Assembly (NCBI GenBank): GCA_003222385.1 | Contig: QHVV01000050.1 | Coordinates: forward strand, 1 to 42,723 | DNA from: Acidobacteriota bacterium | GTDB lineage: Bacteria; Acidobacteriota; Thermoanaerobaculia; UBA5066; Gp7-AA6 | Reading direction: 5' to 3' | DNA length: 42,723 nucleotides | Shown here: positions 2,325-21,747 of the stretch, in pieces | Layout: each line of letters starts with the position of its first letter | How positions within the stretch are numbered: position 1 is the first letter of the stretch | Translations under genes and position numbers: made by a program | The notes under the pieces: model-generated | Told to the model about the DNA's origin: nothing | Seen by the model: only the letters and a program-made list of their open reading frames with translations | Database searches by the model: none

Positions 2325-4183
2325 GCGGAGCGGGCTCGTCCTCCTTCGTCGGGATCGGTCGAGGCCGGCGCGGGCTCCCGGGGCGCGCGCCCCGCCTCGA
2401 GGTATTCGCGGACCGCGCGGGCCGTCGCGGGTCCGACGGCGTCCTCGACTTCCCGCGGGTCGGCGGACGCGACGCCGGCGAGCGATCCGAAGCGCGTGAG
2501 CAGGAGGCGGGCGCGGGTCGGACCGATCCCGGGGATGTCTCGGAGACTCGTCTCCCGCATGCGCTTGGAGCGGCGGCCGCGGTGGCGCGTAATCGCGAAC
2601 CGGTGGGCCTCGTCGCGCACGCGCTGGATCAGCTGGAGGGCGGGGTCCTTGCGGGAAAGGCGAATGGGGTCCGGCCGCGCCGGCACCCAGATCTCTTCTT
2701 CGCGCTTGGCCAGACCGACCACCGGCACTTCGACCCCGAGCCGGTCGAGCGCGGTCAACGCAGCCTGAAGCTGGCCGCGCCCCCCGTCGACGAGCACGAG
2801 GTCGGGCATTTGACTTCCTTGGTCGCGCAGCTTCCGGAAACGGCGCTCGACCGCTTCGGCCATGCTCCGGAAGTCGTCGGGAGCGAGGAGCTGCTGCGAG
2901 GCGATCCCGAAGAGCCGGTAGTCGGACTTTTTGGGTCGCCCGTCCTCGAAGACGACGAGCGACGCGATCGAATCGGTCCCCTGCAGGTGCGAGATGTCGA
3001 AGGCCTCGATCCGGCGGGGGGCGATCGCGAGGTCGAGCACGCGAGCCAGCCTCTCGACGCCGAGCGCTCCTTCCCCGCCCATCCGCCGGAATCGGACCTT
3101 GTGCCGCTGGCAGGCGTTGTCGGCGGCGAGCTCGACCCGTTCGCGCGCCGGGCCCCGTCGCGGAACGCGGACCGAGACCTTGGCGTTGCGCCGCGACGCG
3201 AGAAACGACTCGAGGAGAGCCGGATCCGAGATCTCGACCGGGAGATGGACCTCCGATGGGAGAAACGGGTTCGCGTCGTAGAACTGGGGGAGGAACGCGT
3301 CCAGGAACGCGGCCGGATCGACTTCCTCCGACTTCTCGAAGAAGAACTCCCGGCGGTCCTGGATCACCCCGCCCCGCACGACGAGAACGCACACCGCGAC
3401 GTCTCCTCCCGACTCGAAAAACCCGAAGACGTCGACGTTGTCTCCCTTGAGCGTGTGGACGACCTGGTGCTCGGAGACGTCTTCGACGGTTCGAAGCGCG
3501 TCACGGTACGCCGCGGCCATCTCGAAGTTCTCTTCCGCCGAGGCCTGCCGCATCTTCTTCTCGAGGCTCGCGGAGAGCTCCCGGTTGCGCCCCTGGAGAA
3601 AAAGGACCACGTCGCCGACCGCCTCGTCGTACGCCTGTTTGGTCGTCAGGCCGGCGACACAAGGTCCCAGACAGGCGTGCAGGTCGTAGTAGAGGCACGG
3701 CCGGGGCAGCGTTCCATCGATTTCGATCGTACAGGTGCGGATCTGGAAGTGGCGCGTGATCATCCGCATGATCCTCCGCGCGAGACCTCCCCAGAACGGC
3801 CCGAAATAAGAGTGACCGTCTTCGACCACCCGGCGGGTGACGAGAGCTCGCGGCCACTCCTCCCCCGTCGTGATCTTGATGTAGGGATAGGTCTTGTCGT
3901 CCCGCAGGCAGACGTTGTAACGCGGACGATGCTTCTTGATGAGCGCGTTTTCCAGCAGAAGCGCTTCGAGCTCGGTGTTGGTGACGATCGTTTCCAGGTC
4001 CTGCCAGGCTCCGAGGAGCGCCTCCGTCTTGGTGGCCTCCGGCCCTTTGGTGAAGTACGAGGCCACGCGCTTCTTGAGCGAGCGAGCCTTGCCGACGTAC
4101 AGGATCTTCCCGCGGCGGTCCTTGAAAAGGTATGCGCCGGGCGCGTCGGGAACGTTCTCGGGAGGGCGGCGGGACTCGGTCAC
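2321..4183 (-). CDS. uvrC: UvrABC excinuclease subunit C
   Basis: A 620-residue protein of normal UvrC length. UvrC makes the 3' and 5' incisions around lesions handed over by UvrB. Residues 16-44 are the GIY-YIG nuclease domain (GAYLFKDRRGKILYVGKARS). A UVR motif (EKKMRQASAEENFEMAAAYR) lies near 205-235 and contacts UvrB. The RNase H-like endonuclease half has IEAFDISHLQGTDSIASLVV and LVLVDGGRGQLQAA. A helix-hairpin-helix pair (LRDIPGIGPTRARLLLTRFG) ends the conserved part. The GTG at 4183 opens directly on the conserved N-terminus. The stop overlaps the next ATG. Its usual partner uvrB lies 3.7 kb away on the same strand, not in the same operon. No defect is seen. Confidence 0.97.
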   Translation of the reverse strand: MTESRRPPENVPDAPGAYLFKDRRGKILYVGKARSLKKRVASYFTKGPEATKTEALLGAWQDLETIVTNTELEALLLENALIKKHRPRYNVCLRDDKTYPYIKITTGEEWPRALVTRRVVEDGHSYFGPFWGGLARRIMRMITRHFQIRTCTIEIDGTLPRPCLYYDLHACLGPCVAGLTTKQAYDEAVGDVVLFLQGRNRELSASLEKKMRQASAEENFEMAAAYRDALRTVEDVSEHQVVHTLKGDNVDVFGFFESGGDVAVCVLVVRGGVIQDRREFFFEKSEEVDPAAFLDAFLPQFYDANPFLPSEVHLPVEISDPALLESFLASRRNAKVSVRVPRRGPARERVELAADNACQRHKVRFRRMGGEGALGVERLARVLDLAIAPRRIEAFDISHLQGTDSIASLVVFEDGRPKKSDYRLFGIASQQLLAPDDFRSMAEAVERRFRKLRDQGSQMPDLVLVDGGRGQLQAALTALDRLGVEVPVVGLAKREEEIWVPARPDPIRLSRKDPALQLIQRVRDEAHRFAITRHRGRRSKRMRETSLRDIPGIGPTRARLLLTRFGSLAGVASADPREVEDAVGPATARAVREYLEAGRAPREPAPASTDPDEGGRARSA

Positions 4184-4480: not shown

Positions 4481-5599
4481 TTACTCCGCCGACGGAGGGG
4501 ACGCGCGCACCAGGTCGGGCTTCCGCACCGGGGGCCGGCGGACTTCCTGGCGGATCGTCGGCCGGCGCTCTTTCTCGTACTCCGCCAGGCGCACCGGGCG
4601 GCCCTCCTCTGCCGAGCGATACAGGGCGCGGATGATCCGCACGTCGGCCAGCCCCTCCCTCCCCGACGGCTCCGGCTCCTTCTCCTCGATCACGCACTCC
4701 GAGAAGCGCAGGATTTCCGGGGCGACCTGGTCGCGTTTCGGAAACGTCTTCTCGGTCTTCTTCTCTCCGATCGTCAGGACGTGCCGGATCGGCTGGGCGA
4801 ACTCGTAGGCGGACTGAACCTCCAGGTCGCCCCGGGTCCCCACGACCCGGTAAGACGCGTGGGCGGCCGCGCCGAAGCTCGAGGTGAAGGCAGCCAGCCT
4901 TTCGTCGGGGAAGCGCAGGACCGCGCTCGTCATCTCGTCGATGTCGCGGAGTTTCGGGTCGCCGCCGTTGGCGCCGAACGCGACGACCTCGGTCGGCTCC
5001 GCGCGAAAGAGGGAGCGAGCCGCGTTGATGCAGTAGATCCCGATGTCGTAGAGCGTCCCGCCTCCCCGGGCGATCGGGTTCAGACGGATGTTGTCCTCGT
5101 CCTCGACGCGCATCGTGAAGACCGAGGAAAACACGCGTGGACGGCCGAGCTTTCCGGACTGGACGATCTCGGCGGCCTTCAGGTTCGCCTCCTCGAAGTG
5201 CAGGCGGTACCCGATCATGAGGCGAACGCCCCCCTCTTCCGCCGCCCGGATCATGTCCTCGCATTGCTGTTCCGTCACCGCCATCGGCTTCTCGCACAGC
5301 ACGTGGACCCCGGCCCTCGAGGCGGCGACGGCGTAATCCCGGTGAAGGTGGTTCGGCAGAGCGATGTACACGGCGTCCACTTCGGCGCTCGCCAGGCAGT
5401 CCCCGAACTGCTCGTAGGAATACGACTTTTCGACGCCGTACTTCTTGCCGAGCTTCTTCCGCTTCGTCGGATCGTCCGAAACGAGCGCCACGAGCTCGCT
5501 GTTCTTCGTCGCATGGGCAAAGGCCGGCAGCACCGCCGTCTGCGCGAAATACCCGAGACCGACCACCGCATAGCGGACCTTTCTGCGCCTCGTCGCCAC
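4481..5599 (-). CDS. Gfo/Idh/MocA family NAD(P)-dependent oxidoreductase
   Basis: A 372-residue protein of normal family length. The N-terminal Rossmann fold starts with YAVVGLGYFAQTAVLPAFAH. VDAVYIALPNHLHRDYAV and HVLCEKPMAV follow, the latter holding the family's EKP lysine. The C-terminal alpha/beta domain includes GGGTLYDIGIYCINAARSLF, typical of glucose-fructose oxidoreductase and related sugar dehydrogenases, so the substrate is probably a sugar or cyclitol. The GTG at 5599 was chosen because GGAGAGGAG lies 5 bases before it and the frame upstream is not protein-like. It converges with the zinc-ribbon gene and diverges from the secreted-protein gene. The exact substrate cannot be told from sequence. 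Confidence 0.92.
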   Translation of the reverse strand: MATRRRKVRYAVVGLGYFAQTAVLPAFAHATKNSELVALVSDDPTKRKKLGKKYGVEKSYSYEQFGDCLASAEVDAVYIALPNHLHRDYAVAASRAGVHVLCEKPMAVTEQQCEDMIRAAEEGGVRLMIGYRLHFEEANLKAAEIVQSGKLGRPRVFSSVFTMRVEDEDNIRLNPIARGGGTLYDIGIYCINAARSLFRAEPTEVVAFGANGGDPKLRDIDEMTSAVLRFPDERLAAFTSSFGAAAHASYRVVGTRGDLEVQSAYEFAQPIRHVLTIGEKKTEKTFPKRDQVAPEILRFSECVIEEKEPEPSGREGLADVRIIRALYRSAEEGRPVRLAEYEKERRPTIRQEVRRPPVRKPDLVRASPPSAE

Positions 5600-5683
5600 C
5601 GGGTCTCCTCTCCGCGCAGACGGATCGCGCGACCGAAAAGGCGGGGCAATATCGGTGCCACGAGAATCGTTGCAGTCTTCGGG

Positions 5684-6031
5684 ATGAAACAGCTCATCCG
5701 TGCGGTCACGGCGGTGGCGGCAACGCTCGTGCTCGCCGCGACCTTTCCGTCTGTCGCCGGAGCGCAGTGGGTCCGGCTCCAGCGCTGCGGTAGCGCTCTC
5801 CCCTGCGCGATCCCTTTCGGCGTGCGGTACGCCCCTGACCCGCTGATCGCCTCGCAATATGGCTATGTCTCGCCGAACGGGATCTCGGGACACTTCTCGT
5901 TCGCGCCGGAGCTCTCTGTCCGGATCGACGAGCCGCACGTCTCGCTCGAGCTCGCCGATTTCAGCGAACAGGCGGCGCGGAAGTTCGTGCTCGCGCACCC
6001 GCCGCCGAACCCGCCGCCCCCTCCGAAATAG
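5684..6031 (+). CDS. Small secreted protein of unknown function
   Basis: A 115-residue protein that I do not recognise. It starts with a clear Sec signal peptide (MKQLIRAVTAVAATLVLAAT, cleavage probably after SVAGA near residue 25). The mature part is about 90 residues with two close cysteines (RCGSALPC) that could form a disulfide, then a Tyr/Ser/Pro-rich segment and a polyproline end ([11 protein letters not shown]). The ATG at 5684 is the only start compatible with the signal peptide; the ribosome site is weak. Its last 71 bases overlap the end of the convergent glycosyltransferase gene. Export to the periplasm or beyond is inferred from the leader. Confidence 0.65.
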   Translation: MKQLIRAVTAVAATLVLAATFPSVAGAQWVRLQRCGSALPCAIPFGVRYAPDPLIASQYGYVSPNGISGHFSFAPELSVRIDEPHVSLELADFSEQAARKFVLAHPPPNPPPPPK

Positions 6032-7871
6032 CCGGGACGCCGCGGGCCGGCGCGGGCGAGACCCGCGAGATGCGGACGGTTCCGGAGCCGTCGGTCGCCG
6101 CCGGCGGACAACGCCACGACGAGCGTTTCAGCGGTTCGAGATCTTCGTCGGAAGCGACATACCAGAACGGCGCGGCGGGCGCGGAGCGAAGCAGCTCCCC
6201 GGGAGTCCGGCGTGGCAGCCTCGGGACGGGAGACCGCGGATCCTCGCCGGCCGCGAGCGTTTCGAAGACGATGGGCCACGAGAGCGCCTTCGGCGCGAGG
6301 AAGATGGGCGCATGACCGAGAGCGCGTGCCATGCGGCCGAGGTCGCTTTCCACGACGCAGAACGAGCCCGCGACGAGAGGATCGCGGGGCCATCGGGCCA
6401 AAAAGGGGACCGTCTCCGAGACGAAAAGGACGGTCAACGCGAGCGCCCAGACTCCCGCCGTCCGGACGGAGAGAGCCCGGGCGGCTGCGGGAATCCAGCG
6501 TTCCAGGCTTTCGGCCGCCCAGAGAGCGGCGATCCCGACGAAGGGATAGATCCGAAGCCCGTTCGGCGCTCCCCCCGGGTTGCCGAGGATTCCCGCCAGA
6601 AGGCTCGCCGCCGCGACGAGCCCGAGGAGTCCCTCTCCCGCGTTTCCCTCTCGGTACTTCCGATACGAAAGCGCGGCGCCGGTGAGCGCGGCGATTCCGA
6701 GCGCCGGGTCGAACGGAGGTCGGTCCGGGAATCCGTGGCGCGCGTTGGGATCGCGGGTCCAGAGAAAGAGTCCGGTGTATTCGACGGTGTTGTAGAGGAG
6801 CCGCAGAGGCGGAGCGCCGGGCCGGTTGCCCCCCGGCACCGCCACGTCCTTCGTCGGGGCGAGAAACGAAACGTCGTGCGCCCGGCCGCCGAGCCGTTCG
6901 GGATAGCGCAGGAATGCGGGCGCGAACGGCAGGAAAGCGAGAAGGGCAGCTCCCGCCGCGGCCCCGACGAGCTTCGCTCCCGCCGGCCGGCGGAGGACTC
7001 CAACGGCGAAGACCGCGAAACCGGCCGCGACCGCCCAGGCCGACACGTACGTGTGGAGCGACAGGCCCGCGAGCAGCCCGGCCACCGCCGCCCACGCGGC
7101 CGACCCGATCCGACGCGCCCGAACCGCCGCCGCGGCGGCGCCGAGAACCAGCGCCGTCAGGAGGGCGCCGGTCCAGGCCCAGCGCGAGAACACGAGCGGC
7201 CATCGGGCAAAGGCGAGGATCGCCATCGCGACGAGGCCGCGGCGCGCCCCGGAGACCTCGCGGCCCAGCCAGTACGCGGCCGGAAGCGCGAGCGTCCCGC
7301 CCACCGCCGACAGCGCGAGAAGCCCGACGTCTCCGCGTCCGAAGATCCGGAACAGGAGCTCGCAGAGCTTGAGATAGAGGTTCGAGACGAGCGCGCTGTT
7401 CGCGAGCCCTTCCACGGCGAGCGGTTGTCCCCCAATCCACGGGATCGACCCGGGATGCCGCAACGCGCCCTCCGCCTCGAAGAGAGCGTCGGCCCAGACC
7501 CCCGGAGGGATCTGTCGCGGCGCGATCCACCGCAGCGCGACCCCGCCCGCCAGGATCGCCGCGAAGAGGAGCACGTGACGCCGACGCGAGGCGGCGTCGT
7601 GCGGGGAGCCGGCCCCGCCGGCCTCTACCCGCGGCAGGGATTCCGTCCAGCGGGCGATCCGGAAGAAGACGAAGAAGGCGACTCCCGCGAGAACCAGGTC
7701 CTTTAACCAGAGCAGCGTGACGAGGAGCCAGGATTCGCTGGTCCACCAGAAGAGCACGGCGAACCGATCCCGACGGGCGAAGAAGACGAACGTCTGGATG
7801 GCGGCGAAGAGCGCGAGCGCGACCGCCGCGCCGTCCTCCCCCGGGCCCCGCTGCCGCGGGACGCCGCTCAC
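5961..7871 (-). CDS. GT39/ArnT-like integral membrane glycosyltransferase
   Basis: A 636-residue polytopic protein with roughly ten to twelve hydrophobic helices. After two N-terminal helices comes [20 protein letters not shown], resembling the first extracytoplasmic loop of GT-C fold enzymes with its acidic residues before the second helix. These enzymes transfer a sugar from a polyprenyl-phosphate carrier to lipid or protein outside the membrane. Later helices ([40 protein letters not shown]) are typical of dolichyl-phosphate-mannose mannosyltransferase-like bacterial proteins. A C-terminal soluble part follows the membrane block. The GTG start overlaps the uvrB stop as GTGA. Acceptor and donor are unknown. 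The last 70 bases overlap the convergent secreted-protein gene. Confidence 0.82.
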
Positions 7872-9952
7872 GGGCGGAAGATCTGCAGTTCCCGCAAGCC
7901 GCGCAGCTCGTCGCGGATCTGCGCCGCGCGTTCGAAATCGAGCTCCTTCGCCGCGGCCTTCATCTCTTTTTCGAGCTCCGCGATCCGGCGGGAGAGCGAG
8001 GCGCCGTCCGGGAGGTCCGGCCGCGAGATGGATGCCGTCGCGTCGTAGTAATCGAGGCTCGCCATCCGCACGAGCGGCGAGTTCACCTCCTTGACGATCG
8101 AAGCCGGCTCGATTCCGTACTCCCGGTTGTAAGCCTCCTGGATCGTCCGCCGCCGGCCGGTTTCCTCCATCGCGCGGCGCATCGAGTCAGTCGTCGCGTC
8201 GGCGTAGAAGAGGACCCTTCCTTCGAGGTTGCGGGCCGCGCGCCCCGCGGTCTGGATGAGCGAGGTCTGGCTGCGGAGAAAACCTTCCTTGTCCGCGTCG
8301 AGAATCGCCACGACCGCGACCTCCGGGAGATCGAGGCCCTCGCGCAAAAGGTTGATGCCGATCAGGCAGTCGAACACACCACGGCGGAAGTCGGTCAGGA
8401 TCGCGACGCGGTCGAGGGTTTCGATGTCGGAGTGCAGGTAGCGGCAGCGCACGCCGACCTCGGAGAAATAGTTCGTCAGCTCTTCCGCCATGCGCTTGGT
8501 CAACGTCGTCACCAGCACGCGCTGTCCTTTGACCGCGGCGTCCCGGACGACGGCAAGCAAGTCGTCGACCTGTCCCTTGACCGGCCGGACCTCGATCCGC
8601 GGGTCGAGCAGCCCCGTCGGCCGGATGACCTGCTCGACGACTTCGCCCCCCGTCTTCTGGAGCTCCTCGGGGCCCGGAGTGGCGCTGACGTAAACGATCT
8701 GGTTCAGCCGGGCCTCGAACTCGTCGTAGGTCAAGGGCCGGTTGTCGAGGGCGGACGGCAGCCGGAATCCGTAGTCCACGAGGACTTCCTTGCGCGAGCG
8801 GTCGCCGTGATACATGCCGTGCACCTGCGGGAGCGTGACGTGCGACTCGTCCACGACGAGGAGGAAGTCGCGCGGGAAGTAGTCGATGAGCGTGGGAGGC
8901 GGCTCGCCCGCGCGGCGGCCCGAGAGATGCCGCGAGTAGTTCTCGATGCCGTTGCAGTATCCGAGCTCCTTGATCATCTCGAGGTCGAACATCGTTCGCT
9001 GATGGAGTCGCTGCGCCTCGAGCAGCCGTCCGGCCGCGGAGAGCTCCGCGAGGCGCGCGTCGAGCTCCGTCCGGATGGACGAGATGGCCCGTTCGAGCGT
9101 CTCCTTCGGGGTCGCGTAGAAGGTCCGCGGGTAGAGGGCGATCCGCTGCACCTTCTGGAGCGCCGTCCCCCGGAGCGGGTCCGTGCGCGTGATCTTCTCG
9201 ACTTCGTCGCCGAAGTACTCGATCCGGACGGCGACGTCCTCGTACGCGGGATGGAGCTCGAGGACGTCTCCGCGAACGCGGAACGTGCCGCGCGCGAGAT
9301 CGAGGTTCGTGCGCTCGTATTGCATCTCGACCAGCTGGGAAAGGAGAGCCCGCATGCCGGAGCGGTCTCCGACTTCGACGTAGGCGAGCATGTCGTAGTA
9401 CGACTCGGGCGAGCCCAACCCGTAAATGCAGGAGACCGAGGCGACGACGATGACGTCGCGCCGCTCGAAGAGCGCCTTCGATGCGGAAAGCCGCAGCTTG
9501 TCGATCTCTTCGTTCCGGGAGGTCTCCTTCTCGATGTACGTGTCGCTCTGCGGGATGTACGCCTCCGGCTGGTAGTAGTCGTAGTACGACACGAAGTACT
9601 CGACCGCGTTCTCCGGAAAGAAGCCGTGGAACTCCTGGTAGAGCTGGGCGGCCAACGTCTTGTTGTGGGACAGGACGAGGGTCGGGCGGTTGACCGCCTC
9701 GATCACCTTCGCCATCGTGAACGTCTTTCCGGAGCCGGTGACGCCCAGGAGCACCTGGTCGCGCCGCCCTTCCTCGATCCCGGCCGTCAGCTTTTCGATC
9801 GCCTGCTTCTGGTCGCCCTGGGCGGTGAAGTCGGTTTTCAGGACGAAACGCCCGCCGGCGCGCGCTTGCGCGTCCAGGTAGGAGCCGGGCTTCGCCGTCG
9901 GCCGGCCCCGGGAAACCGGGGGTTTCGTCTGAGAGCCGGGACGCGGGCTCAA
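7868..9952 (-). CDS. uvrB: UvrABC excinuclease subunit B
   Basis: The 694-residue damage-verifying helicase of nucleotide excision repair. Walker A is [20 protein letters not shown]. The beta-hairpin region holds [20 protein letters not shown]. The Walker B site is [13 protein letters not shown]. Later helicase motifs include [20 protein letters not shown] and [13 protein letters not shown]-terminal UVR domain ([20 protein letters not shown]) for UvrC binding closes the protein. No ATG or GTG lies just before the conserved N-terminus. A TTG at 9952 overlaps the upstream stop as TTGA and is proposed as start, giving about 36 extra N-terminal residues. No strong ribosome site precedes it, so coupling to the upstream gene is likely. 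The downstream glycosyltransferase overlaps its stop. Confidence 0.95.
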
Positions 9953-10416
9953 GGGACGGGGGTCGGCCGGACCGGCGGTCGAGGGGCGGGCGCTCTCTCC
10001 CGCGGACCGCCTCCCTCGGCCGCTCGCCCGCGGGCGTTCGCGGAGGCCTCCCGGAAAACCCGGGTCAATTCGTGAACTTCGTCGCGCCCGACGACCCGCC
10101 CCAGCTTGACGGCATCCCGCACCTTTTCCATGTCTTCCTTCCGGACGCGCTTCTCCTCGAGCGCGGTCCGGAAATCGGCGTACGCCGAGTCGAGATCCGA
10201 CTTGTCGGCATCCGTCACGTCGGTCGCGTATCCGGATCTCACCCGGTCCATCAGGAGGTCGGTCACCGCCGTGGGCTTCTTCTGGATGTAGACGCCCAGA
10301 CCGATGAGCGCCGCGACGCAGAGGACTGCGGCGCCGCCGCAGCCGAGGAGCGCGGCCTTCCAGCAGCCGCGGTTCGCAGGGGGAGCGGCGGGCTCGATGG
10401 GAGGAGCCGTGCTCAC
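9949..10416 (-). CDS. Membrane-anchored hypothetical protein upstream of uvrB
   Basis: A 155-residue protein that I do not recognise. A short Pro/Ala-rich N-terminus is followed by one transmembrane helix at about 19-44 ([20 protein letters not shown]). A charged, mainly helical soluble part of about 85 residues follows ([34 protein letters not shown]), ending in an Arg/Pro-rich tail. It starts with GTG at 10416 and its TGA overlaps the proposed TTG of uvrB, so the two are probably co-translated. The penicillin-binding protein gene diverges 31 bases upstream. The helical domain may be a small protein-interaction region; no catalytic motif is seen. Confidence 0.72.
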
Positions 10417-10447
10417 GAAGGCTCCGCTTATAGCATACGAGGCGACG

Positions 10448-11350
10448 ATGGCTCAAAATGCGAAACGGCAGCCCATGGACCGGGAAAAGACGCTTCTCGC
10501 TCTCCTGCCGCTCGTGATCGCGGCGCTACTGGGCGTCGTCGCCGGAGCCGCCGCGACGAACTTCGTCCGGGTTCCCCGGGTCTCGGAGCTCGAGACTTAT
10601 CGGCCCGACATCATCACCGAGATCCGGGGGGCGAACGGCGCCACCATCGCGCGATACGCGATCGAGCGGAGGATCCTGGTCTCGCGGGGCCAGATCCCGC
10701 CGGTCCTGCGCAACGCCATCATCGCGACGGAAGACAAGAACTTCTTCCGCCACGGCGGCGTGGACGTCGGCAGGACGGTCTCCGCTCTCCTGGCGAATCT
10801 CCGGCAGAAAAGCTACGCGCAGGGCGGCTCGACGCTGACGCAGCAGCTGGCGCGAGCGATCTTTCTTTCGCCCCGCAAGACGATCACCCGGAAGGTCAAC
10901 GAGGCCTTCGTGGCCTTCGAGATCGAGCGGCGGTACTCGAAGGAGCAGATCCTGACGATGTACGCCAACGAGATCTACCTGGGGCACGGCAACTACGGAG
11001 TCGAGGCGGCCGCCCGGTACTACTTCGGCAAGAGCATCAAGGACCTGACGCTCGCGGAGGCGGCGCTGCTGGCGGGGATCGTCCAGAGGCCCGAGGACCA
11101 GTCGCCGTTCCGGAACCCGCAGCTCGCCCGCCGCCGACGGGCGACGGCGCTGGCGCGCATGCGCGCCGAGGGATACATCACGGAGAAGGAACGGGCTGCC
11201 GCCGACTCCGAGCCGCTCCCGACGAGCCCGTCGCTCGAGGAGACGATCGTCGCCCCGTACTTCTGCGAAGAGATCCGGCAGTACCTCGAGCGCACCTACG
11301 GAGAGCAGGAGCTCTATCGGCGCGGCTTGAAGATCGAGTCGACGCTCACT
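10448..11350 (+). CDS. Penicillin-binding protein 1A, N-terminal glycosyltransferase part (frame broken)
   Basis: About 300 residues of a class A PBP, which polymerises lipid II into glycan strands. A short cytoplasmic tail is followed by a membrane anchor at about 15-38. The GT51 domain has [16 protein letters not shown] (catalytic Glu95), [20 protein letters not shown] and [20 protein letters not shown]. The gene starts with ATG at 10448 after GAGGCG. At RGLKIESTL, where a class A PBP continues with a DP.LQ.AAN-type helix, the frame leaves the family; the transpeptidase part resumes one frame over. As read, translation would carry a non-homologous tail up to 12745. The glycosyltransferase domain itself is complete, so it could still be active if the break is real. 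Confidence 0.85.
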
Positions 11351-12824
11351 GAGGCGCCTGGCCCGCCGGCACGGTTTCCGGCGGCCGCGCAATCTCCTCG
11401 AGGAGGGGTATCGGGATCTCGACACGTTCGTGGATCCGTCCTGGGAGGGTCGGGCCGCCGGCGCGGGCGCCGCGGTGCGGGGCGTCGTCCTCTCGGTCTC
11501 GCATACCGGAGCGGACGTCCGCGTCGGAAAGAAGGTCCTGCCTCTGGAGGCCTCCGGCATTGGCTGGACGAACGCGAAGGATCCCTCGAAGATCCTGAAG
11601 CGAGGAGACCTCGTGACCGTCACGATCGAGCCGAAGAAGGACGGGACCGAAGAGCTCTCACTGGAGCAGGACCCGAAGGAGGAAGGCGCCGTCCTGATCG
11701 TCGAGAACGCCACCGGGGCCGTCCGCGCGATGGTGGGCGGATACGACTGGACGCGCTCGAAGTTCAACCGGACCACCCAGGCTCTCCGCCAGGCCGGCTC
11801 GACCTTCAAGCCGTTCGTCTATCTCGCCGCGCTCGAAGCGGGATACACGCCGTCCGACACCGTCTTCGACGGACCGATCTCGATCGTTTTCGATTCCCAC
11901 CAGCCACCCTATCGGCCCACCAACTACGACGGCAAGTTCCGCGGGATCGTGACATTCCGCCGGGCTCTCGAGTATTCCTACAACGTCTCGGCGGTGCGCG
12001 TTTCCGAAATGGTCGGCCGGGCTCACGTCATCGAAGCGGCGCACCGCCTCGGCATCCGCCAGAAGCTCTCCCCCTATCCCTCCGTGGCTCTGGGGGCCTT
12101 CGAGGTGACGCTCGCGGAGATGACGTCGGCGTTCTCGGTCTTCGCGAACCAGGGTCTCGCGTTTCCCATTTACCTCTTCGACCGGATCACGGATTCCAAC
12201 GGGGACGTGCTCGAACAGACCCGTCCGGACGCGCGCGAGGTCGCGAGCCCGCAGGCGTGCTTCCAGCTCCTCCAGATGCTGAAGGGCGTCACGCAGCGCG
12301 GCACCGCGGCTTCCGCAGCGCGCCTGAAGCTGAACATCGCCGGCAAGACCGGCACCACGAACGACTGGACCGACGCCTGGTTCCTCGGGATGACGCCCCG
12401 CTACACGATCGGCGTGTGGGTCGGCAACGACAAGAAGACCGAAAGTCTGGGCAAGGGAATGGACGGCGCGCACGCCGCGGTGCCGATCTGGATCCGCGTC
12501 GTCGAGAAGATGAAGGACGGCGGAGCTCTCGATCCGAAAGAGGACTTCGATGCGCCTCCCAACGTCGTCTTCACCGCCGTGGACTACGAGACCGGATTAA
12601 AGGCGACGCCGGGGAGCCCCCGCCCGATCCTCGAGACCTTCGTGTCCGGTTCCCAGCCGACCGAGGAATGGTCGTCGCGCTGGGAAGAGATCACCCGGCT
12701 GCCCTGGTCCCTCCAGCGGTCCTTCTATCTGCCGAAGAAGGGTGAAGAGTCCGGCGAGGGCGCGCCGGCGCCGGGGCCGACACCCGCCGCGCGACCGACG
12801 CCTGCCGCGGGAAAACCGGGCTGA
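11349..12824 (+). CDS. Penicillin-binding protein 1A, C-terminal transpeptidase part (frame broken)
   Basis: The second half of the same class A PBP, in a different frame. It resumes with [20 protein letters not shown], then an OB-like insert (VRGVVLSVSHTGADVRVGKK), then the transpeptidase domain that crosslinks peptide stems. All three active-site motifs are intact: STFK (Ser at about 11799), SYN in EYSYNVSAVRVSE and KTG in NIAGKTGTTNDWTDAW. A Pro-rich tail ends the protein. The first in-frame start usable alone is GTG at 11430, but that product would lack a membrane anchor. Compared with the family, about 14 residues are missing at the junction, and the frame change fits a deletion of 3n+2 bases (about 41 or 44). 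Either a real lesion or an assembly error. Confidence 0.85.
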   Translation: MRRLARRHGFRRPRNLLEEGYRDLDTFVDPSWEGRAAGAGAAVRGVVLSVSHTGADVRVGKKVLPLEASGIGWTNAKDPSKILKRGDLVTVTIEPKKDGTEELSLEQDPKEEGAVLIVENATGAVRAMVGGYDWTRSKFNRTTQALRQAGSTFKPFVYLAALEAGYTPSDTVFDGPISIVFDSHQPPYRPTNYDGKFRGIVTFRRALEYSYNVSAVRVSEMVGRAHVIEAAHRLGIRQKLSPYPSVALGAFEVTLAEMTSAFSVFANQGLAFPIYLFDRITDSNGDVLEQTRPDAREVASPQACFQLLQMLKGVTQRGTAASAARLKLNIAGKTGTTNDWTDAWFLGMTPRYTIGVWVGNDKKTESLGKGMDGAHAAVPIWIRVVEKMKDGGALDPKEDFDAPPNVVFTAVDYETGLKATPGSPRPILETFVSGSQPTEEWSSRWEEITRLPWSLQRSFYLPKKGEESGEGAPAPGPTPAARPTPAAGKPG

Positions 12825-12828
12825 GCGA

Positions 12829-13287
12829 TTAGGCGGACGCCGCGCCGGCCGGCTGGACGTCCACGGTCAGCTCCGCGACGACGTCTCGGTGCAACCGGAC
12901 GTGCACACGGTGCTCGCCCAGGCGCTTGATCGGCTCGGCGACCTCGATGCGGCGCCGGTCCACTTCGATGCCCCGCTCGCCCAGAGCGTCGGCGATTTCG
13001 GTCGGGGTGACGGAGCCGTAGAGGACGTCCCCTTCCCCCGCCTTCTTCGAGATGGCGATCCGAAGGCCCTCGATCTTCCGCGACGCCTCCTCCGCGACCG
13101 CTTTTTCGCGAAGGTTCTTGTCGTCGTACTTCTTCTTCTCTTCCGTCAACCGGCGCGCGTTCGCCGGCGACGCCTGCCAGGCGAGCCCCTGCGGGAAGAG
13201 GAAATTGCGGGCGTAGCCGGGCTTGACCGCGACGGTGTCGCCGCGGTGCCCGAGTCCCCGGACGTCATCGGCCAGAATTACTTTCAT
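12829..13287 (-). CDS. rplI: 50S ribosomal protein L9
   Basis: A 152-residue protein of normal L9 length. The N-terminal rRNA-binding domain begins MKVILADDVRGLGHRGDTVA and contains VKPGYARNFLFPQGLAWQAS, the L9 signature. A long connecting helix (NARRLTEEKKKYDDKNLREK) leads to the C-terminal domain with GDVLYGSVTPTEIADALGER. The ATG overlaps the stop of the DUF2232 gene as ATGA. It is the last gene of the S6-S18-DUF2232-L9 block and ends 5 bases before the convergent PBP frame. Nothing is unusual. Confidence 0.97.
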   Translation of the reverse strand: MKVILADDVRGLGHRGDTVAVKPGYARNFLFPQGLAWQASPANARRLTEEKKKYDDKNLREKAVAEEASRKIEGLRIAISKKAGEGDVLYGSVTPTEIADALGERGIEVDRRRIEVAEPIKRLGEHRVHVRLHRDVVAELTVDVQPAGAASA

Positions 13288-14279
13288 CTTTTTTCGATCG
13301 CTCCCGCGCCTCGACGGCGAAAATCCACGTACCAGTCGAACAGTCCCAGCAGCGCGACCCCGACGTTCATCGGGAAGTAGGCCACGAGGGTATAGACACC
13401 GACGCGGAGGAGCCAGAACCGGAACCACCTCCGCGCGAAGTGGCAGATGATAGAGAGGCCCGCCACGAAATACAAGGCGCCGAGCGGCAGCAGAATGCCC
13501 CCCATCGCGGGCCGGGCGACCGGGGGAACGAACACCATCCCAGCGCCGGCCGCGACGAAAAGCGGAGCCAGACCCGCCGGCAGCCGCAGCTGCTCGTACC
13601 GTGCGTCCTCCGCGGAGGGAGATGGGCGCGCGAGCCGCGCGCCGGTGTAGAACGAGATCGCTCCACAGAAGACCCAGAGAAGACCGAGCAGGCCGGCCCA
13701 GTAGCGCCGGCTGAACTCGCGCGCCGAGTCGAGCGTCGCGCGCACCCGTGCCACCGTTTCCGCGTCCATTCCGGAGCGCCCGTACGACGCCATCGCCGCC
13801 GGAATCATCCGATCGAACTCGCGCGCGATCTGCTGTCCCACCGGCTGGCCGGACGCGGCCGCGTCGCCGAGGAAGAGGGCCGCGAGCAGGACCGACCCGG
13901 TTCCACAGAGGAGGAGGAACGCGAGCGAGGGCCGCCCGGTTCGCCGGGAGAGAGCCGCGAAACCGGCCGGGAGGACCGCCGTGCCGGCCGCCAACGCGCC
14001 GCGCAACCCGGCCTCCCTTCCGCCTCCGGTCGCGAATGCCACCGCGGCGACGACCGCTCCGGCGAGCGCCGAGGCCAGGATCGCCGCGACGCCGCCCCGG
14101 CGGTGCGCAAGCCGGACCGCCGGAACTCCCGCCAGCGGAAGGCCGATCGCGCCGACGAGCGGCAGCGCGAGAAAGAGCGCGAACGCCAGCGCCGAGGAGC
14201 CGGCGGCCAGCGCGATCTCCCACGCCAGCCCGTGCGGGTGACGCGGGGCGGTCGGCTCGTCGACCGGGTTCGCCTCCAT
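13284..14279 (-). CDS. DUF2232 (YybS-like) polytopic membrane protein
   Basis: A 331-residue hydrophobic protein with about eight membrane helices. Most of the N-terminal half is membrane, followed by an amphipathic segment (QQIAREFDRMIPAAMASYGR). More helices follow (YWAGLLGLLWVFCGAISFYT, ALYFVAGLSIICHFARRWFR). The end, YFPMNVGVALLGLFDWYVDF, is the conserved DUF2232 tail. Members are often found between rpsR and rplI, exactly as here. The family's function is not established. The ATG at 14279 is preferred over a TTG one codon earlier. The spacer from rpsR holds a heptad-repeat hairpin, so its expression may be set separately from S18. Confidence 0.85.
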   Translation of the reverse strand: MEANPVDEPTAPRHPHGLAWEIALAAGSSALAFALFLALPLVGAIGLPLAGVPAVRLAHRRGGVAAILASALAGAVVAAVAFATGGGREAGLRGALAAGTAVLPAGFAALSRRTGRPSLAFLLLCGTGSVLLAALFLGDAAASGQPVGQQIAREFDRMIPAAMASYGRSGMDAETVARVRATLDSAREFSRRYWAGLLGLLWVFCGAISFYTGARLARPSPSAEDARYEQLRLPAGLAPLFVAAGAGMVFVPPVARPAMGGILLPLGALYFVAGLSIICHFARRWFRFWLLRVGVYTLVAYFPMNVGVALLGLFDWYVDFRRRGAGAIEKR

Positions 14280-14282
14280 CAA

Positions 14283-14331
14283 CGGAGTCGGAAATCGGAA
14301 ATCGGAAATCCGATTCCCGATTCCCGTTCAG
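14283..14331 (-). repeat. Heptanucleotide tandem repeat forming a 16-bp hairpin after rpsR
   Basis: The sequence splits into seven consecutive 7-mers: one CGGAGTC, three GGAAATC, two CGATTCC and one CGTTCAG. The array covers the rpsR stop codon (14328-14330). On the transcribed minus strand, 14310-14325 and 14290-14305 pair over 16 positions with G-U pairs allowed and a 4-base loop. No U-run follows, so it is not a standard terminator. It could serve as a processing or stability element between S18 and the DUF2232 gene. Short tandem heptamer repeats are known from some bacterial genomes; similarity to those is by period only. Confidence 0.8.
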
Positions 14332-14612
14332 TCGGTCGCGTACGGCAGGAGCGCGATCGACCGGGCCCGCTTGATCGCGGTCTGGAGCTTGCGCTGATGA
14401 AGCGCGCACGTTCCGGAAATCCGACGCGGCAGGATCTTGCCCCTTTCCGGGATGAATCCCTGGAGGAGCTTGACGTCCTTCCAGTCGACGTACTCGAGCT
14501 TTTCCGCGCAGAACTTGCAGACCTTGCGGCGGCGAACGAAGAACTTCTTACGGGTTCCGGTCTTGCCGTCGCGGCTCGACGCGGTCGACCGTCCGCGGGG
14601 TGCAGGGCTCAC
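14328..14612 (-). CDS. rpsR: 30S ribosomal protein S18
   Basis: A 94-residue protein, slightly long because of an Arg/Ser/Gly-rich N-terminal 20 residues. The core has [40 protein letters not shown] and [20 protein letters not shown], the S18 signature that packs against S6 on the 30S platform. The CxxC plus a later Cys indicates the cysteine-bearing form that can hold zinc. The start is GTG at 14612, overlapping the rpsF stop as GTGA. The repeat array begins at its stop codon. Confidence 0.97.
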
Positions 14613-16419: not shown

Positions 16420-17357
16420 CTACACAAAAAGGGAAGAAACGGAAGCTCCTTCGTGGATCCGCTGGATCGCCTCCCCCAGGAGAGGCGCCACGGAAAGCGT
16501 GCGGATCTTCCGGCAACTGCTCATCGCGTCGTCCAGCGGGATCGTGTTCGTCACGAAGAGAGTCTCCAGACCGGACTCCTGGATACGCTCGCGCGCCGGT
16601 CCGGAAAAGACGGGGTGGACCGCTGCGGCGAACGTCCTGCGCGCGCCCTGCTCGCGGAGCGCTTCCTCCGCCTGGACGAGGGTTCCGGCCGTGTCGATGA
16701 TGTCGTCCAGGATCAGGACGTTCTTTCCCTCGACGTCTCCGACGACGTTCAGGACCTCGGTCTCGTTCGGTCCGCTGCGCCGCTTGTCGATGATGGCGAG
16801 CGAGGCGCCGAGGCGCTTGCCGAGCCGCCGACGTCCGGAGACACGATCACCAGGTCGTCGACGCCCATCTCGCGGATCGCGTCGAGGAGGACGGGAGCCG
16901 CGAACAGGTGGTCGACCGGGATATTGAAGAACCCCTGGATCTGGAGGGTGTGGAGGTCCATCGTCAGGATCCGGTCGGCGCCCGAGGCGGTCAGGAGGTC
17001 GGCCATCAGCTTGGCCGCGATCGGCACGCGCGGCTTGTCCTTCTTGTCCTGGCGCGCGTATCCGAAATACGGCATGACCGCCGTGATCCGCGAAGCCGAG
17101 GAGCGCCGGAACGCGTCGAGCAGGATCAGGAGCTCCATGATGTGGTCGTTGACGGGAGAGCACGTCGGCTGGACGACGAAGATGTCCGCGCCCCGCACGT
17201 TCTCGTCGATCTGGCAGTAGTTCTCGCCGTCGGAAAAGTTGAAGAGCGTGATCTCGCCCGGCGAGATCCCGAGGTATTCGCAGATCTCTTTCCCGAGCGC
17301 CGGATGCGCCCGGCCCGAGAAGATCTTGAGGTCGCCGTAGGAGAAGTTGGGGGTCAA
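16420..17357 (-). CDS. prs: Ribose-phosphate pyrophosphokinase, interrupted by a frameshift
   Basis: Prs makes PRPP for nucleotide, histidine and tryptophan synthesis. The first part (about 178 residues from a proposed TTG at 17357) has [60 protein letters not shown] and VIVSPDVGG. The frame then changes at about 16823/16824. The second part runs to 16420 with [15 protein letters not shown] and the PRPP-binding loop [20 protein letters not shown]. Family members continue PDVGG with about six residues of the type VVRARAF before the Lys-Arg, which are missing here. The break therefore looks like a deletion of about 19 bases. Since prs is normally essential, an assembly or sequencing error is the simpler reading. 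All other motifs are present. Confidence 0.85.
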
Positions 17358-17373
17358 GCGCGCGAGATTCTAT

Positions 17374-21446: not shown

Positions 21447-21452
21447 TATAAT
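21447..21452 (+). promoter_or_regulatory. TATAAT -10 box before the HU gene
   Basis: A perfect TATAAT lies 26 bases before the HU ATG, in a 118-bp divergent gap. No clear TTGACA-like hexamer is seen 16-18 bases upstream. The predicted transcript start near 21459 leaves room for the GGAGG ribosome site, which fits. Confidence 0.5.
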
Positions 21453-21477
21453 GCGCCGCGATTTTCCGGAGGGCGCC

Positions 21478-21747
21478 ATGATCAAAGCCGACATCGTCGA
21501 CCTCGTCGTCGACCTCGCGAAGATTCCCCGCGCCAAGGCGGCGACCGCGGTCGAGACGGTGATCGAGTCGATGCGATCCGCTCTCGGGGCGGGCGACCGG
21601 ATCGAGCTGCGCGGCTTCGGCGTCTTCCAGGTCAAGCGCCGCAAGCGCGGCATCGGGCGCAATCCCAAAACCGGCGTGGAGGTGACGATCCCGCCCGGCA
21701 ACACGATTCGATTCAAGCCGGGCAAGGACTTGCGCGACCTGCCGTAG
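21478..21747 (+). CDS. HU/IHF family DNA-binding protein
   Basis: An 89-residue protein of normal HU length. The N-terminal helices are MIKADIVDLVVDLAKIPRAK, followed by VETVIESMRSALGAGDRIEL and the signature RGFGVFQVKRRKRGIGRNPK. The beta-arm Pro is in GRNPKTGVEVTIPPGNTIRF. HU bends and compacts DNA; IHF-like members bind specific sites. Basic arm residues are kept. The ATG at 21478 follows GGAGGGCGCC; an earlier in-frame ATG at 21451 overlaps the -10 box and is rejected. The site-2 protease gene follows 25 bases later. Confidence 0.95.
   Translation: MIKADIVDLVVDLAKIPRAKAATAVETVIESMRSALGAGDRIELRGFGVFQVKRRKRGIGRNPKTGVEVTIPPGNTIRFKPGKDLRDLP

Follow-up and report, generated by a model that had tools for sequence, protein, structure and literature searches.

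Results

The window, which is the whole stretch of 42,723 nucleotides analyzed in the present study, belongs to the draft genome of an Acidobacteriota bacterium. It carries a PBP1A-family class A PBP gene at positions 10448–12824 on the plus strand, and this gene is encoded in two reading frames. The first half (10448–11347, plus strand) consists of an N-terminal stretch that appeared hydrophobic by eye and the glycosyltransferase (GT51) half; it is in frame from the ATG at 10448, and relatives matched it up to the Leu codon at 11345–11347. The second half (11352–12824, plus strand) lies in a different frame and consists of the remainder of the linker, an OB-like part, and the transpeptidase half. 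Relatives matched it from the AGG at 11352 up to the stop codon of the gene at 12822–12824. An earlier note on this DNA had described the two halves as lying in different frames, with a break somewhere in 11330–11440; we located the frame change between 11347 and 11352 (plus strand), inside that range. The translations of both halves were free of internal stops, and what we take to be the catalytic motifs of each half are visible in them.

The domains on either side of the break were recognized as intact, as the earlier note had also proposed. The first half matched the glycosyltransferase 51 domain (PF00912) with 213.9 bits (cut-off 27), and the second half, in the second frame, matched the transpeptidase domain (PF00905) downstream of it with 113.1 bits (cut-off 22.1). 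The OB-like domain PF17092 scored 25.6 bits in the second half, just under its cut-off of 27. The two halves resemble the PBP1A family (TIGR02074; PF00912 plus PF00905) in that the parts of the model they match are complementary and correctly ordered (positions 1–230 for the first half and 253–532 for the second). Singly, they score 267.6 and 306.2 bits, both below the cut-off of 508.75. The assembly differs from the family in lacking 44 bases where the halves meet; with this gap and the frame change, the two domains and the linker segment do not lie in one continuous frame in the assembled sequence. We also considered whether the first half represents an MtgA-type monofunctional peptidoglycan glycosyltransferase. 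It matched TIGR02070 with 138.3 bits; however, this value is below the cut-off of 182.65, and the PBP1A model scored higher (267.6 bits). This assignment was rejected. In a search of 59 relatives, the first half showed 77% and 76% identity to two same-family relatives. The nearest named records for this half, in a scan that may omit the window's own genome, were two Acidobacteria metagenome bins (L037 and L038, 77%) and a Thermoanaerobaculia bin (L039, 57%).

The size of the loss was examined in an alignment of 29 loci, one each from 29 of the 59 relatives searched. We selected the alignment because open-frame lengths do not prove that relatives are intact, as the broken gene of the window also reads 817. 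At the break (11347 to 11352), 4 bases are present in the window, versus 16 residues in 28 of the 29 aligned relatives, counted between the position aligned with L300, which closes the first half, and that aligned with the opening residue of the second half. The 29th locus (L021) stops short of the break at a contig end, and another (L020) is likewise cut by its contig end shortly past it. In the DNA of the 27 relatives other than these two, 16 codons occupy the place of the 4 bases, which puts the apparent loss at 44 bases. The earlier note had suggested approximately 41 or 44 bases, and the larger value was upheld. All 28 relatives that could be read here were free of a break: 27 extend across the second half, and the remaining one runs into the end of its contig. 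The break was also set at 11347 by a frame scan based on codon usage, with both halves among the genes that seeded the codon table.

The window does not contain any run of N. We did not find a repeat bracketing the 44-base loss at 11347; two direct-repeat families (9 and 15 bases) are present in 11230–11480, and the collapse of a repeat at the junction was rejected as neither family flanks a 44-base loss. The edges of the loss were judged from the bases that relatives conserve there, and these gave no hint of shared ends. We infer that edges of this kind make a simple repeat collapse less likely and favor either an end-to-end join or a real end-joining event. The same genome yielded no second intact copy of the locus, and plasmid records did not match 11200–11600. 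The 59 relatives searched did not include a genome of the same genus.

The two halves were then compared for signs of decay. Identity to the same-family relative G002 was 73.5% for the first half and 73.0% for the second half. Changes unique to one sequence numbered 12 in the window, 7 in G002, and 17 in G001 for the first half, and 22, 19, and 35, respectively, for the second half. Therefore, the changes peculiar to the window in the transpeptidase half were not above the range of the two intact relatives. Since an old loss would have allowed this half to drift and no excess of its own changes was detected, any loss is recent, which fits both a very recent deletion and an assembly error.

Set against the corresponding contigs of G001 and G002, the window showed one further frame change in a real gene, prs (ribose-phosphate diphosphokinase), 5.5 kb from the PBP break on the same contig. 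The N-terminal part of prs (16824–17369, minus strand) matched PF13793 with 177.5 bits and positions 2–176 of TIGR01251. The C-terminal part (16426–16824, minus strand) lies in another frame and matched PF14572 with 105.2 bits and positions 174–308 of TIGR01251. In DNA alignments with G001 and G002, relative to both of these genomes, 19 bases are missing at approximately 16823–16826, without a gap and with a change of frame. These two adjacent pieces are the sole matches to TIGR01251 above the cut-off in the window's genome; four further matches are weak and fall short of it. Apart from the broken gene, no full-length prs was found in this draft, which is 95.3% complete and in which some contigs are all N (four of 20 sampled), such that a second prs may, with low probability, be hidden. 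The TIGR01251 family was present in 14 of 14 control genomes. A cell lacking a working prs is not expected to live. In-frame losses of at least five residues versus the relatives were few in the window, and were found in poorly conserved genes or differed between the two relatives. The window was chosen for its break; therefore, the local rate of breaks is biased upward.

An HU-type DNA-binding protein gene in the window (21451–21741, plus strand) was 95% identical to that of G001.

We also examined 20 stretches of the window's draft (G000), four of which were all N; the remaining 16 comprise 217,412 non-N bases. A frame scan of these 16 readable stretches flagged 12 places, and two of these, in rapZ and mgtE, were upheld against one relative each. 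The frame change in rapZ (L109 at about 8338; G000:C122, minus strand) is gapless and 8 bases short of G001, the only relative used for this gene because the G002 match covers only query residues 4–83. The frame change in mgtE (L113 at about 19099; G000:C169, plus strand) is gapless and 28 bases short of G002, and G001 did not have a close mgtE match for comparison. In both genes, domains are present on both sides of the break. Four other flagged places coincided with N runs (two in L098, L105 near 3502, and L111). The six remaining flags were L103 14822, L105 754, L110 17611, L113 3031 and 4911, and L115 5484, some of which resemble plain gene boundaries. Ten internal N runs of 5–249 bases were present in the 217 kb sample (L098, L105, L108, L111, and L117), and their varied lengths resemble those that may be left by scaffolding with estimated gap sizes.

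Relatives were scanned in the same manner; a G001 contig of 50 kb received one flag, and a G002 contig of 33 kb received four. The scan is neither specific nor complete, as it missed a break in uvrC of G002. This uvrC (G002:C99; L088 12766/12767) is 256 bases short of the window (3295–3550) and of G001, with a change of frame. Taken together, short clean losses recur in the window's draft, in prs, rapZ, and mgtE, one of which is a single-copy universal gene, and are present at least once in the draft of a relative. We regard the similar breaks as a supporting sign and not as a definition of an error.

Two other observations concern the contigs compared. The rapZ gene of G002 (G002:C74; L119) also looks broken, with its C-terminal part in a 101-residue frame. 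Between uvrC and uvrB, the window carries at 4484–7871 (minus strand) a Gfo/Idh/MocA-type oxidoreductase gene and a gene for a protein with a sub-threshold match to the PMT_2 glycosyltransferase; neither had a match in the compared contigs of G001 and G002.

Discussion

The 44-base loss is very probably an assembly error in an otherwise ordinary PBP1A-type class A PBP gene of an uncultured Acidobacteriota bacterium. We favor this explanation because the same draft contains other gapless losses, including that in the only prs found, as well as N runs of the scaffolding type. On the best reading of the data, the losses in prs, rapZ, and mgtE, the N runs, the uvrC break in G002, the lack of decay in either half, and the absence of a break in the 28 readable relatives all count in its favor. 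On the other side, the window has no N run and hence no visible scaffold join at 11347, the junction has no repeat, the genome yielded no second intact copy of the locus, and the loss would be survivable. In an assembly error of this kind, two assembled pieces may have been joined end to end with a wrong gap size, or a join may have been made without read support. The 44 bases would then be lacking in the assembly alone, and the cell itself would make the normal anchored bifunctional glycosyltransferase-transpeptidase.

According to Chen et al. (2020; PMC7111523), incorrect genes enter public databases through local assembly errors and scaffold gaps in metagenome-assembled genomes, and 13 local errors are reported there in one 1.13 Mb genome. 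The present case resembles the errors in that text in its short clean losses inside genes and in the N runs of the same draft. However, errors were tested there by read support, whereas the likeness here is drawn from assembled sequence. A literature search on class A PBPs with a frameshift did not yield anything related.

A real deletion of 44 bases would also produce the observed arrangement. It may be a recent event in the sampled strain, or in a fraction of its population, after which the glycosyltransferase half would still work and the transpeptidase would be dead or lack its anchor; we consider this unlikely. At the same low probability, the proposal holds that the cell tolerates the loss because it still has a second class A PBP and the RodA/FtsW systems at work. 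Survival does not argue against it because the genome encodes a second class A PBP on C53 (an open frame of 801 aa), two SEDS proteins, and two other transpeptidase proteins, which provide redundancy in principle. The junction also lacks a repeat that would explain a simple assembly collapse, and the window lacks an N run. However, the same type of lesion is present in prs, rapZ, and mgtE, and several fresh lesions without other decay are improbable. Moreover, the transpeptidase half did not show relaxed evolution, although a very recent loss would look alike. It is also extremely unlikely that the split is functional, with the halves working as two separate proteins or with ribosomal frameshifting joining the frames into an enzyme with a short linker. 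The domains of both halves score above their cut-offs, and the transpeptidase frame is open from 11331, such that a shift before 11352 is possible in principle. However, such a shift would not restore approximately 15 linker residues that all 28 readable relatives have, and a separate second-half protein begun at its first listed start (GTG at 11430) would be without an anchor. A programmed frameshift gene was rejected, as a break conserved in relatives was found in none of the 28. An RNA element and a DNA hairpin were likewise rejected: Rfam gave no match at the gathering score in 9500–14500, and the DNA fold at the break was not unusual (z −0.98).

The earlier note had left the choice between a real split and an assembly error undecided. 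The deletion, its size, and the domains on either side held, and an assembly error is better supported than a real split. We find it very doubtful that the organism truly possesses a split class A PBP with its two activities uncoupled, the glycosyltransferase ending in a long out-of-frame tail and the transpeptidase being separate or lost. If the sequence is real, the glycosyltransferase would carry about 465 out-of-frame residues (the frame is open to 12745), and the transpeptidase, from its GTG start, would be unanchored.

The complement of glycosyltransferases also differed from that of a relative. In G001, a third match of the glycosyltransferase type lies in a 232-residue frame (G001:C39:37133-37792), whereas the window's genome has only two PF00912 matches. 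The smaller number may reflect loss or incompleteness.

With an assembly error as the preferred explanation, the present results indicate that this draft holds short losses that are not marked by an N run and that break genes in a manner resembling biology. Claims of gene loss or gene splitting based on this draft need to be checked against reads first. If the split in this bacterium were real, it would be a natural experiment on whether a class A PBP can have its two activities separated.
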